DNA of 64,000 bases from Streptomyces sp. 840.1. Its GTDB lineage: Bacteria > Actinomycetota > Actinomycetes > Streptomycetales > Streptomycetaceae. The notes under the pieces were generated by a model, which worked only from the letters and a program-made list of their open reading frames with translations, was not told the origin of the DNA and ran no database searches. The stretch is from positions 558,001-622,000 of the forward strand of contig NZ_RJUU01000002.1 in the NCBI RefSeq assembly GCF_003751445.1, in the 5' to 3' direction. Within the stretch, counting starts at the first letter, position 1. Each line of letters starts with the position of its first letter. A program made the position numbers and the translations under genes. Below are positions 32,231-41,805 of the stretch, piece by piece.

Positions 32231-33405
32231 CACCGGCGTCCCTTCGGCAGTCCGAGCAGCCGCTCGGCGATGATGTCGCGCTGGATCTCGTTGGTGCCCG
32301 CGTACACGGGACCGGCCAGGGAGAAGGTGTACCCCTCGGCCCAGGCCCCGTCCTCGGGCGACTCGCCCGCGTGGTCGGCGAGTTCGCCGTACGGGCCGAG
32401 CAGGTCGAGCGCCGTCTCGTGCAGAGCGATGTCCAGTTCGGACCAGTAGATCTTGTTGAGGCTGGAGGCGGCCGCGGCCGGCCCGCCCTCGTCGTGCAGT
32501 ACGTGGGAGGCGCCCCGGTAGGAGAACAGCCGGTAGGCGCGTGCGCCGATCACGGCATCGGCCACCCGGTCGCGCAGTGCCGTGTCGGCCGGGTCGCCGT
32601 GTTCGCGCCACAGGGCGGTGAGCCGGTCCGCAGCCGCGGTGAACCGGCCCGGACTGCGCAGGGTGAGTCCGCGTTCGTTCCCGGTGGTGCTCATCGCGAC
32701 CCGCCAGCCCTGTCCGGGCTCACCGATGACGTCCTCGTCCGGGACGAACACCTCGTCCAGGAAGAGTTCGGCGAAGGCGGGCTTCCCGTCGAGCCGCCCG
32801 ATGGGCCGCACGGTGACCCCGTCGGCCCCCAGCGGGAACATCAGATACGTCAGTCCCCGGTGCGGCCGGTCCGCGTCCGGGTCGCTGCGGAACAGGCCGA
32901 AGGCGCGGTCCGCGAAGGCGGCCCGGGACGACCAGGTCTTCTGGCCGCTGAGCAGCCAGCCGCCCTCGGTGCGTACGGCCTTCGAACGCAGCGAGGCCAG
33001 GTCCGATCCGGCCTCCGGCTCCGACCAGGCCTGCGCCCAGATGACCTCGCCGCGTGCCATCGCCGGCAGGATCCGGTCCCGCTGCCCGGCGGTGCCGTTC
33101 TCGAAGAGGGTGGGGGCCAGCAGGCTGATGCCGTTCTGGCTGACCCGGCCGGGCGCGCCGGCGGCGTAGTACTCCTCCTCGAAGACCAGCCAGCGCAGCA
33201 GCGAGCCGCCGCGCCCGCCGAACTCCTCGGGCCAGGACACCACCGACCAGCGGTCGGCGGCCAAGGTCGCCTCCCACTCCCGGTGGGCGGCGAATCCGGC
33301 GGCGGTCTCCAGGGACGGCAGGGGAGCGGCCGGTACGTGGGCGGCGAGCCAGTCGCGCACCTCGGTCCTGAACTCCTCGTCGCCCGCGTCGAGATCGAGG
33401 TCCAT
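32230..33405 (-). CDS. Acyl-CoA dehydrogenase, long FadE type
   Basis: A 391-residue acyl-CoA dehydrogenase of normal length. N-terminal DEEFRTEVRDWLAAHVP, FAD region WAQAWSEPEAGSDLASL, SGQKTWSS, and the C-terminal signature YAGTNEIQRDIIAERLLGLP. Its gene overlaps its neighbours on both sides by ATGA (hydratase upstream, short dehydrogenase downstream), so all three are translated together. Probably the partner subunit of the 328-residue protein, acting on a ring-derived CoA ester. Given that fadE30 is truncated close by, one of these enzymes might take over that step, but this is inference. Confidence 0.88.
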   Translation of the reverse strand: MDLDLDAGDEEFRTEVRDWLAAHVPAAPLPSLETAAGFAAHREWEATLAADRWSVVSWPEEFGGRGGSLLRWLVFEEEYYAAGAPGRVSQNGISLLAPTLFENGTAGQRDRILPAMARGEVIWAQAWSEPEAGSDLASLRSKAVRTEGGWLLSGQKTWSSRAAFADRAFGLFRSDPDADRPHRGLTYLMFPLGADGVTVRPIGRLDGKPAFAELFLDEVFVPDEDVIGEPGQGWRVAMSTTGNERGLTLRSPGRFTAAADRLTALWREHGDPADTALRDRVADAVIGARAYRLFSYRGASHVLHDEGGPAAAASSLNKIYWSELDIALHETALDLLGPYGELADHAGESPEDGAWAEGYTFSLAGPVYAGTNEIQRDIIAERLLGLPKGRR

Positions 33406-34253
33406 CAGGCACCCGCCTCCTTCATCGCCCGGATGTCCATGCCGCCGAGCGCGTCGGGCGCGGTCGCGGCGTTGTGGGCGTGTGCCAGGTGGTGCAGGCC
33501 GAAGACCGAGTCCATCCCGGCGTGCATGCCCTGCAGATCCTCGGCCTGGTTGACGGCGCGCTTGGTCAGGGCGAGGCCCAGACGCGGCATCTCGGAGATC
33601 CGCAGCGCCAGTTCGCGGGTGCGCTCGGGCAACTCGGCCCTGGGCACCACCCGGTTGACCATTCCGATCTCGTAGGCGCGCCGCGCGCTCATCCGGTCGC
33701 CTGTGTAGAGGAACTCCTTGGCGATCCGGGGCGGCATCACCCAGGGGTGCGCGAAGTACTCGACACCCGGAATGCCCATGCGGACCACCGGATCGGCGAA
33801 GAACGCGTCCTGCGCCGCCACGATCAGATCGCACACCCAGGCCAGCATCAGGCCGCCCGCCACACACGCGCCCTGGACGGACGCGATGACCGGCTTCGGC
33901 AGCTCCCGCCACCGCCGGCACATCCCCAGATACACCTCGGACTCGCGGGCGAAGCGGCTCTCCGCGCCCGCCTTGTCCGAGTGGTCCCACCAGAGTCCCG
34001 CCCGGCGTTCGAAGGGGAGATGGGCGTCCCGCTCCGGGGTACCGATGTCGTGCCCGGCGGAGAAGTGCTCGCCCGCTCCGGCCAGTACGACGGTCTTCAC
34101 CTCGCTGTCGTCGGCCGCGCGGTAGAACGCCCGGTCCAGTGCGTAGGTCATCGCGGAGTTCTGCGCGTTGCGGTAGTCGGGCCGGTTCATGGTCACCGTG
34201 GCGACGGGGCCCTGCTTCTCGTAGCGCACCGGTTCGTCGTGGGCAGCGGGCAT
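33405..34253 (-). CDS. Enoyl-CoA hydratase/isomerase family protein
   Basis: A 282-residue crotonase. Motifs: VATVTMNRPDYRNAQNSAMT, HFSAGHDIGTP (oxyanion hole), QGACVAGGLMLAWVCDLIVA and the acid region DPVVRMGIPGVEYFAHPW. This subfamily, with ample PGVEYFAHPW and MDSVFGLHHLAHAHN, is the one annotated in mycobacterial steroid regulons. It is the first gene of the four-gene minus-strand operon, 14 bases from the KstR2-like operator. AGGAGG lies close upstream of the ATG at 34253. It probably hydrates the alpha,beta-unsaturated CoA product of the dehydrogenases. Confidence 0.87.
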   Translation of the reverse strand: MPAAHDEPVRYEKQGPVATVTMNRPDYRNAQNSAMTYALDRAFYRAADDSEVKTVVLAGAGEHFSAGHDIGTPERDAHLPFERRAGLWWDHSDKAGAESRFARESEVYLGMCRRWRELPKPVIASVQGACVAGGLMLAWVCDLIVAAQDAFFADPVVRMGIPGVEYFAHPWVMPPRIAKEFLYTGDRMSARRAYEIGMVNRVVPRAELPERTRELALRISEMPRLGLALTKRAVNQAEDLQGMHAGMDSVFGLHHLAHAHNAATAPDALGGMDIRAMKEAGA

Positions 34254-34267
34254 CGGCTCCTCCTTCC

Positions 34268-34290
34268 CTAACAAGTGTTTGGTAGATTAA
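34268..34290. promoter_or_regulatory. KstR2-like operator with back-to-back -10 elements
   Basis: CTAACAAGTGTTTGGTAG (34268-34285) is an imperfect palindrome that fits the published mycobacterial KstR2 consensus AnCAAGnnCTTGnT at all fixed positions but one. It overlaps the plus-strand -10 TAGATT (34283-34288). The minus-strand -10 TAATCT (34290-34285) shares those bases and has TCGACG 17 bases away (34313-34308). One bound repressor would block both divergent operons. The same 18-mer form recurs at 41785-41802. Confidence 0.75.
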
Positions 34291-34299
34291 CGTACCCCC

Positions 34300-34440
34300 A
34301 TGAGCAGCGTCGAGGAGTTCCGCGCCGGGATCCGTGGCCGGCCGCAGACCTCACCGCCGGAGCCGCGGAGATCCCACGACACCTGGTTCGACACCATCGC
34401 CGAGCGCGTCCTCGGCCTGCCCGAGGGGATCCGCCCGTGA
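34300..34440 (+). pseudogene. fadE30: Internally deleted fadE30-like acyl-CoA dehydrogenase (46 codons)
   Basis: ATG 34300 to TGA 34440 is an open frame. It begins MSSVEEFRAGIRGR, matching the FadE30 N terminus (VEEFRAQVRGW as I recall it), and ends TIAERVLGLPEGIRP, matching the invariant acyl-CoA dehydrogenase C terminus (IIAERVLGLP). About 340 residues of FAD and substrate domain are missing between them. Its TGA overlaps the GTG of ipdF (GTGA), and in mycobacteria fadE30 is next to ipdF. So an in-frame deletion removed the enzyme but kept promoter, start and coupling. The peptide cannot be a dehydrogenase. Confidence 0.78.
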
Positions 34441-35222
34441 CCACCCAGCCGTCCTACGTAGCAGGGCACTCCCTCCTGACCGGACGCACCGCCGTGATCA
34501 CCGCCGCCGCCGGCGCCGGGATCGGCGGGGCGACGGCCCGCAGGTTCCTGGAGGAGGGCGCCCGGATCGTCATCGGTGACGCCCACGCCCGCCGGCTGGG
34601 GGAGAGCGCCACCGCCCTGGCCGAGGAGTTCGGCGACAGAAACGTCGCCGCACTGCCCTGCGACGTCACCGACCAGGAACAGGTCGACGCCCTCTTCGCG
34701 TTCGCCGCCGAGCGCCACGGCGGCCTCGACATCGTCGTCAACAACGCGGGACTCGGCGGCACCGCCGACCTCGTCGACATGGGCGACGAGCAGTGGTCGA
34801 AGGTCCTCGACGTCACCCTGAACGGCACCTTCCGCTGCACCCGCGCCGCCCTGCGCCACTTCAAGGACCGGGCGGGCGGCGGCACCGTCGTCAACAACGC
34901 CTCCGTCGTCGGCTGGCGCGCCCAGCGCGGCCAGGCCCACTACGCCGCCGCGAAGGCCGGCGTGATGGCCCTGACCCGGTGCGCGGCCCTGGAGGCCGCC
35001 GACTACGGCGTACGCGTCAACGCCGTCGCCCCGAGCCTGGCCATGCACCCGCACCTGGTGAAGGTCACCACCCCCGGACTGCTGGCCGAACTCACCGAAC
35101 GCGAGGCCTTCGGCCGGTACGCCGAACCCTGGGAGGTCGCCAACGTCATCGTCTTCCTGGCCAGCGGCTACTCCTCGTACATGACGGGGGAGACCGTCTC
35201 CGTCAGCAGCCAGAGGGCGTGA
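34437..35222 (+). CDS. ipdF: IpdF, short-chain dehydrogenase acting on HIP-CoA-type intermediates
   Basis: A 261-residue SDR. It opens TQPSYVAGHSLLTGRTAVIT, with cofactor loop AAAGAGIGGATA, NNAGLGGTADLVDM, catalytic YAAAKAGVMALTRC and the ending SDYSSYMTGE-like SGYSSYMTGETVSVSSQ. These strings closely follow M. tuberculosis IpdF (Rv3559c) as I remember it, including the rare VSSQ end. IpdF oxidises the ring hydroxyl of the indanone propionyl-CoA derived from steroid rings C and D. GTG start overlaps the stop of the fadE30 relic, and its own stop overlaps kstR2, giving a coupled operon. Confidence 0.88.
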   Translation: MTTQPSYVAGHSLLTGRTAVITAAAGAGIGGATARRFLEEGARIVIGDAHARRLGESATALAEEFGDRNVAALPCDVTDQEQVDALFAFAAERHGGLDIVVNNAGLGGTADLVDMGDEQWSKVLDVTLNGTFRCTRAALRHFKDRAGGGTVVNNASVVGWRAQRGQAHYAAAKAGVMALTRCAALEAADYGVRVNAVAPSLAMHPHLVKVTTPGLLAELTEREAFGRYAEPWEVANVIVFLASGYSSYMTGETVSVSSQRA

Positions 35223-35821
35223 GCGCCATCGCCGGGAACGCGAACGCCGAACGGCGCGCCGAACTCCTGGCGACCGCCGCCGAGGTGTTCGCCGCCCTGG
35301 GGTACAGCGCCACCACCGTCCGCCGCATCGCGGACGAGGCGGGGCTGCTCGCGGGCAGCCTCTACTACCACTTCGACTCCAAGGAGTCGATGCTGGACGA
35401 GATCCTCTCCGCCTTCCTGGACGAGCTGTGGGCGGGTTACGGCAGCGTCCTCGACGCCGGACTCGGGCCCGGGGCGACCATCGAGGCGCTCGTCACCCAG
35501 TCCTTCCGGCAGATCGACCGGCACCGCCCGGCGGTCGCCATCTACCAGAAGGAGTCCGGACAGCTCTCCGCCCAGCCGCGCTTCGCCTACCTCACCGGCT
35601 CCCGGGCGAAGTTCGAGGACGCCTGGCTGCGGACCCTGGAACGCGGCGTGGCCGAGCACGCCTTCCGAAGCGACCTGGACGTCAGGCTCGTCTACCGCTT
35701 CGTCCGCGACACCGTCTGGGTCGCCGCCTCCTGGTACCGGCCCGGCGGCACCCACAGCCCGGAGGAGATCGCCCGCCAGTACCTGTCCATGGTCCTGGAC
35801 GGCATCACACCCCGTACCTGA
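35219..35821 (+). CDS. kstR2: KstR2, TetR family repressor of steroid C/D-ring catabolism
   Basis: A 200-residue TetR regulator, the same length as mycobacterial KstR2. DNA-binding part: RRAELLATAAEVFAALGYSA, TTVRRIADEAGLLAGSLYYH. The ligand domain ends DLDVRLVYRFVRDTVWVAAS then WYRPGG and YLSMVLDGIT, which I recognise as the KstR2 C terminus (DLVYRFIRDTTWVSVRWYRPGG). KstR2 is released from DNA by HIP-CoA. The GTG start overlaps the ipdF stop. Two matching operators in the window at 34268 and 41785 complete the picture of a local regulon. Confidence 0.88.
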   Translation: MSAIAGNANAERRAELLATAAEVFAALGYSATTVRRIADEAGLLAGSLYYHFDSKESMLDEILSAFLDELWAGYGSVLDAGLGPGATIEALVTQSFRQIDRHRPAVAIYQKESGQLSAQPRFAYLTGSRAKFEDAWLRTLERGVAEHAFRSDLDVRLVYRFVRDTVWVAASWYRPGGTHSPEEIARQYLSMVLDGITPRT

Positions 35822-35854: not shown

Positions 35855-37012
<1,158 letters not shown>

Positions 37013-41784: not shown

Positions 41785-41805
41785 CCACCAAACGTTTGTT
41801 AGATT
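41785..41805. promoter_or_regulatory. Second KstR2-like operator and divergent promoter
   Basis: CCACCAAACGTTTGTTAG (41785-41802) is the reverse orientation of the site at 34268 and differs from it at only a few bases. On the plus strand it runs into TAGATT (41800-41805), a -10 identical in sequence and relative position to that at the first site, followed by CAACGTA in both. The site lies between echA20 and a divergent SDR gene. Confidence 0.75.

Follow-up and report, generated by a model that had tools for sequence, protein, structure and literature searches.

Attenuation leader peptides are encoded by short open reading frames (ORFs) that stand before an operon. The short ORF described here likewise precedes an operon, and differs from attenuation leaders in lacking a terminator, an Rfam match and conservation of its peptide. 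A closer likeness is offered by the small leaderless ORFs that mycobacteria couple to the next gene (Shell et al. 2015, PMC4633059). These combine a leaderless first ORF with an RTGA link to the following gene, the linkage being kept rather than the peptide. In Streptomyces coelicolor, approximately 21% of primary start sites give leaderless mRNAs, with 5'-UTRs of under 9 nt and ordinary -10 elements (PMC4895711). For the enzymes concerned, a Mycobacterium table in PMC5380842 gives the gene order fadE30-ipdF-kstR2-fadA6, and PMC8708139 describes FadE30 (IpdE1) as the alpha partner that acts with IpdE2 (FadE33) on 5-OH-HIP-CoA.

The window analysed here is a 64,000-nt stretch of Streptomyces sp. 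840.1 (contig NZ_RJUU01000002.1, positions 558,001 to 622,000). The intact reference FadE30 is that of locus L047 (Streptomyces sp. DvalAA-43, 388 aa), encoded at the same genomic place. The relevant features, in window coordinates and with Shine-Dalgarno abbreviated to SD, are:

33405..34250, minus strand: divergent enoyl-CoA hydratase, PRK08290 type (NF006140, 444 bits, cut-off 280)
34268..34285, plus strand: KstR2-like operator CTAACAAGTGTTTGGTAG, overlapping a -10-like TAGATT (34283-34288)
34300..34440, plus strand: 46-codon fadE30 remnant ORF (the stub); ATG start without SD, stop overlapping ipdF (GTGA)
34300..34338, plus strand: first 13 codons of fadE30, kept; 12/13 identical to residues 1-13 of L047 FadE30
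34339..34389, plus strand: 17 scar codons; in DNA alignment to L047 and L204, first out-of-frame fadE30 DNA after a 4-nt loss, then no reliable alignment
34390..34437, plus strand: last 16 codons of fadE30, kept; 12/16 identical to L047 residues 373-388; contains the SD-like stretch of ipdF
34437..35222, plus strand: ipdF, SDR family oxidoreductase (NF005880, 443 bits, cut-off 336); start within the GTGA overlap
35219..35821, plus strand: TetR-type regulator, assigned as kstR2 by its position between ipdF and the fadA6-like thiolase; overlaps ipdF as GTGA
35855..37012, plus strand: acetyl-CoA C-acyltransferase, fadA6 by position (NF005865, 699 bits, cut-off 591)

The gene order of the window matches fadE30-ipdF-kstR2-fadA6, with ipdF and the thiolase above their cut-offs and the TetR-type gene assigned by position, its NCBIfam TetR-family matches being weak and none of them above cut-off. 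As no NCBIfam model is named FadE30, and the intact L047 protein falls below every NCBIfam cut-off, the name fadE30 rests on gene order. Two acyl-CoA dehydrogenase genes also run divergent from the stub operon, beside the enoyl-CoA hydratase. The stub occupies the same operon place as the gene for FadE30/IpdE1 and has the same N- and C-terminal residues as that protein; unlike the enzyme, it has no catalytic body. The spacing of its start would fit a leaderless mRNA of the kind common in S. coelicolor (PMC4895711).

By analogy, the stub would fit the mycobacterial class of coupled small ORFs: it is a short first ORF with an SD-free start and an RTGA overlap (here GTGA at 34437-34440), in which linkage appears to be kept over peptide. 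Unlike the ORFs of PMC4633059, the stub has a visible origin (a dead enzyme gene, seen at many stages within one genus), and we infer its leaderless start and its translation. What is new here is that a putative coupled leader ORF can be seen to descend from a dead gene, and that this has happened repeatedly; a literature search that left most subscription journals outside its reach returned no title describing such an origin.

Origin of the 46-codon ORF

The stub is a remnant of full-length fadE30. Residues 1-13 align by BLASTP with residues 1-13 of L047 FadE30 (E 3e-5) and residues 31-46 with residues 373-388 (E 1e-5), whilst the 17 residues between them give no better-than-chance BLASTP alignment to that protein. 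Relative to L047, FadE30 residues 14-372 of 388 are replaced by these 17, i.e. approximately 340 residues are gone. The 46-aa sequence matches none of the NCBIfam families and the full acyl-CoA dehydrogenase body is absent; with the catalytic body gone, the stub cannot be an acyl-CoA dehydrogenase. At its other end, the TGA stop (34438-34440) overlaps the GTG start of ipdF (34437-34439) as GTGA, read directly from the window. The first-pass annotation had described a 46-codon ORF with both ends derived from fadE30 and a GTGA link to ipdF, and sequence and BLASTP bear this out.

The presence of the intact gene at the same place in close relatives, and of a second 46-aa version in Streptomyces sp. 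NPDC048462, makes the stub more than a product of chance. This sister ORF, retrieved by a protein search limited to 0.55-1.75 times the query length and to sequences sharing exact words, carries eight substitutions (residue 10 and residues 23-30) at unchanged length. No full-length, high-identity second copy of the window stub turned up in a DNA search across 392 Streptomyces genomes, and the longest matches to its DNA were the scars of other strains, at 71-75%. Misassembly or sequencing error could in principle yield a 46-codon remnant, and no actual support for this was found; an ORF of equal length in a second strain and comparable remnants across many independent assemblies refute such an artefact in practice, and we attach next to no probability to it.

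The DNA alignment to L047 and L204 shows how the scar is built. Over its first 35 nt the stub DNA matches fadE30; 4 nt are then missing from a TGGC repeat near codon 13, and the next approximately 20 nt correspond to fadE30 in a shifted frame. A stretch too short and mixed for safe alignment comes next, and the match to fadE30 resumes, back in the original frame, near nt 1122. The loss in the window is thus net in-frame but composite, in that the 4-nt loss shifts the frame and a later loss restores it. The first-pass annotation had proposed an in-frame internal deletion of about 340 residues: the extent of the loss and its net frame stand, whereas a single in-frame deletion is ruled out by the two compensating losses. 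Locus L205 has a 4-nt loss in the same TGGC repeat, with its frame-restoring loss at other positions; shared descent and repeat slippage are both possible sources of the common 4-nt loss. Frameshifts cancel out within the scars of L001, L205, L045 and L039, and in L046, a further close relative, the frame stays broken.

Recurrent loss of fadE30 in Streptomyces

At E <= 1e-70, ipdF was found in 102 of 150 Streptomyces genomes. In total 278 loci were gathered (L001, 29 more, 80 named, 72 remaining and 96 new, the last being 96 among the matches listed), of which 276 could be anchored; the other two, L262 and L267, gave no match to the ipdF anchor motif and were set aside. Of these, 253 were distinct in the ipdF body and upstream stretch, and five automatic class labels were corrected. 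Full-length fadE30 is present in 73 of the 253 distinct loci and absent from 180. The latter fall into four classes: 1) fused, in which ipdF is read from the old start position (112/253); 2) mini, in which a short ORF ends exactly on the ipdF start (22/253), in the manner of the RTGA link of coupled small ORFs; 3) start-less, with no start at the old position and an SD-led ipdF (40/253, counting L107, which has a 17-codon SD-led stub, MSSVAERVLGLPKGARP); and 4) broken-frame (6/253). Start-less and broken loci still keep an open ipdF. The first residues of many fused loci are those of FadE30 (MSSVEE-), and derivation from fadE30 is less direct for large fused clades that begin M-x-x-VES or GTG-GACAACAAG. 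One locus inside the large fused clade, L106, carries a GTG-initiated leader ORF of 9 codons that ends on a new ipdF start, as if the captured start had split again.

If regain is barred, 38 losses of fadE30 are counted, or 31 with weak nodes collapsed, and plain parsimony gives 20 state changes; the underlying tree, built from IpdF plus two divergent dehydrogenases where available, is weak in places and open to horizontal transfer. Of 19 ipdF loci from outside the family, ten have a FadE30-like gene immediately upstream, so that the full-length gene before ipdF is probably ancestral. Five of these ten FadE30-like genes start close behind a similar box; of the remaining loci, three of the 19 have lost the gene behind a similar box and six have other neighbours. 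The first-pass annotation had suggested asking whether other strains share the deletion: many do, but with different junctions. It had also held that relatives with the short ORF only, and with ends unlike FadE30, would count against a fadE30 origin; 73 of the 253 loci are full-length and the ends of the stub align with FadE30. An event unique to this strain is ruled out by comparable losses in many Streptomyces loci.

Loss often extends beyond fadE30 itself. The divergent hydratase is present in 56 of 63 loci with full-length fadE30 vs 32 of 179 that have lost it, counts that ignore descent and leave out 11 of the 253 loci for short flanks. The window keeps this hydratase although its fadE30 is lost; elsewhere the hydratase has often gone together with fadE30 across the shared promoter.

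Operator, start site and coupling frame

Each of the 276 anchored loci, hence each of the 253 distinct ones, has a KstR2-like operator before ipdF (with up to five substitutions allowed). Together with its -10-like TAG[GA]TT this operator is near-invariant in every class, most positions reaching 2.0 bits, and from its position it would be the binding site of KstR2. In the window, TAGATT sits 11 nt before the ATG of the stub. A sigma-70 consensus scan of 34240-34520, which also requires a -35, returns no promoter, and TAGATT has no recognisable -35, so that a promoter here is suggested by position and conservation. The "promoter -10" of the first-pass annotation is therefore present as a hexamer at the spacing given, but not as a promoter that the scan finds.

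The old start of fadE30 is fixed relative to this operator. It lies at operator +10 in all 67 full-length loci with a start there (six more start later), in 102 of 112 fused loci (six are at +13, and four scored +8 are probably GTG at +10), in 21 of 22 mini loci and in 6 of 6 broken loci. SD duplex energies average -3.4 kcal/mol ahead of the fadE30 start (66 full loci) and -4.9 ahead of the fused ones, vs -11.7, -10.7, -10.9 and -11.7 kcal/mol before the ipdF start in full, mini, start-less and broken loci respectively. In start-less, broken and seven full-length loci the candidate with the best SD was taken as the ipdF start, which biases the means of these classes towards strong values. On these energies, ipdF appears to be read either from an SD-free start at the operator or from an SD-preceded start. 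In the window, the SD-like stretch GAGGGGA (34423-34429) before ipdF has a duplex energy of -15.2 kcal/mol. Lying 10 nt behind the operator without an SD, the old fadE30 start is probably a (near-)leaderless one. The six full-length loci without a start at +10 are L113, L116, L121, L240, L248 and L263; L121 has a longer, GGAG-containing leader and a fadE30 start further downstream, a switch from a leaderless-looking to an SD-led start. The fadE30 codons GTCGAG survive behind the operator in start-less loci (e.g. L036, L103 and L094), at 0.7-1.1 bits per base, and recent loss of the start or a role of the DNA itself are possible reasons for their persistence.

We consider it likely that the window holds a decayed fadE30 whose stub still loads ribosomes into ipdF. 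fadE30 would be the first gene of a KstR2-controlled operon, fadE30-ipdF-kstR2-fadA6, decayed here as many times in Streptomyces, with its start fixed behind a promoter-overlapping operator and read as a (near-)leaderless start, and with its last codons carrying an SD and overlapping the start of ipdF. Deletions that spare ipdF expression would then remove the middle of the gene and leave both ends. Ribosomes loading at the old start would translate the stub and reach the GTGA overlap, so that a frame ending there would be harmless or helpful and other frames would tend to be cleared. The stub peptide itself would have no role.

Grouping the mini loci by junction, by eye, and leaving out L106 (in the fused clade) and L107 (SD-led) gave 13 events, which were set against six broken events and one (L069) that shares the ipdF frame and also has an SD of its own. 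The coupling frame is kept in 13 of the 20 scar events against an expectation of 1/3 (P = 0.0037); merging L001 with L205 gives P = 0.0074, and also dropping L115 gives P = 0.0144. Several multi-indel scars restore the frame overall. The spacing from box to ipdF is longer in broken than in coupled scars (P = 0.003), which would fit broken frames being recent and lost with time, and where spacing is at most 250 nt, a threshold picked after seeing the data, 11 of 13 scars are coupled (P = 0.0002). The 27-nt stub of L025, L038, L117, L124 and L125 is constant in length whilst pairs of these loci differ by 8-10% in ipdF.

These frame counts and constant lengths speak against plain neutral decay, under which the stub would be debris, its ends surviving because operator/promoter and the SD and start of ipdF are indispensable, and its coupled frame a matter of luck (1 in 3). 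Neutral decay has points in its favour, namely the strong SD of ipdF in the window, the open ipdF of six broken-frame and 40 start-less loci, and the weaker outcomes of some tests: coupled against broken events alone, 13 vs 6 at 1/2, gives P = 0.084, and when 12 fused events are included, six broken of 31 events with a retained start, tested at 1/3, give P = 0.068. Nor is there a structural need for coupling, the RNA opening cost at ipdF in mini loci not exceeding that in start-less loci (median 11.5 vs 12.7, P = 0.90; the length-matched comparison covered the mini class only), so that nothing shows that ipdF needs the coupling. Among the 40 start-less loci no out-of-frame excess was found (18 in the coupled frame, 12 in the ipdF frame and 10 out of frame). 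On balance we regard neutral decay as unlikely, and selection on the coupling frame as the likelier cause of the bias.

What would be kept is frame and length rather than peptide, since codon changes between sister stubs comprise seven nonsynonymous and one synonymous (seven non-independent sister pairs). The same changes weigh against a 46-aa peptide that functions in itself, whether as a small protein or as a regulatory leader peptide. The identical length of the sister ORF in another strain would agree with such a peptide, but stubs of separate events have only their FadE30 ends in common, and the stub region contains no terminator, no Rfam match and an unremarkable fold (z -1.26, with 24 of 200 shuffles as good); we consider a functional peptide very improbable. 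Frame bias and peptide drift together correspond to the linkage-not-peptide property of the coupled small ORFs, with weaker variants of the frame test at 0.07-0.08. The first-pass annotation had proposed that the stub may be kept as a leader needed to translate ipdF and kstR2. A leader role gains indirect support from the frame bias, the operator-fixed start and the peptide drift, but a strict need is not supported, given the window's own SD-like stretch before ipdF (-15.2 kcal/mol), the 40 loci without the old start and the null result on RNA opening.

The FadE30-like paralogue and wider implications

Elsewhere in the genome of the window, a gene at G000:C1:1507882-1509045 (L126, L203) specifies a protein with 62% identity to intact FadE30. 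At E <= 1e-145, this FadE30-like paralogue is found in 87 of 150 Streptomyces genomes: in 84 of 102 with ipdF vs 3 of 48 without an ipdF match and, among those with ipdF, in 78 of 86 without full fadE30 vs 6 of 16 with it (Fisher P = 1e-5, a test that ignores descent). Its surroundings form a conserved second cluster: an SDR and a putative cyclase accompany it in 21 of 21 loci (L203 and L346-L365), and in most of these stretches an amidohydrolase and another dehydrogenase gene of the alpha type are present as well. No KstR2-like box was matched in the 16 kb around the genome's own paralogue, nor in the 20 further paralogue loci at two mismatches. Since the paralogue co-occurs with loss of fadE30, it is a plausible candidate substitute for FadE30. 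The first-pass annotation had raised a possible loss of HIP-CoA dehydrogenation unless another FadE substitutes, and the paralogue makes such a substitution plausible. No beta partner is named, as the IpdE2 model stays below its cut-off throughout the genome (best 186 of 450 bits).

A broader proposal, which we offer tentatively and with confidence a little short of even, is that death of a first gene may be a recurrent birth route for coupled leaderless leader ORFs. Under this proposal fadE30 would have been deleted dozens of times in Streptomyces, selection would keep its start and frame (not its peptide) as ribosomes feed ipdF, the end state would be the capture of the leaderless start by ipdF, and the FadE30-like paralogue of the second cluster would take over the reaction. 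If true, it would 1) give a visible origin to many unexplained coupled small ORFs of actinobacteria; 2) provide a set of natural deletions, running from the full gene through stubs of 8 to 134 codons to start capture and SD-led loci, in which to measure what a leaderless upstream ORF adds to the next gene; 3) imply that the translation signals of neighbouring genes shape how genes are lost from operons; and 4) suggest a candidate enzyme that may replace FadE30 when Streptomyces degrades steroid C/D rings.

A second KstR2-like palindrome, with 2-3 mismatches to the pattern used, is present in the window at 41785-41802, between the divergent genes ending an ipdA/echA20-like cluster and an SDR gene.
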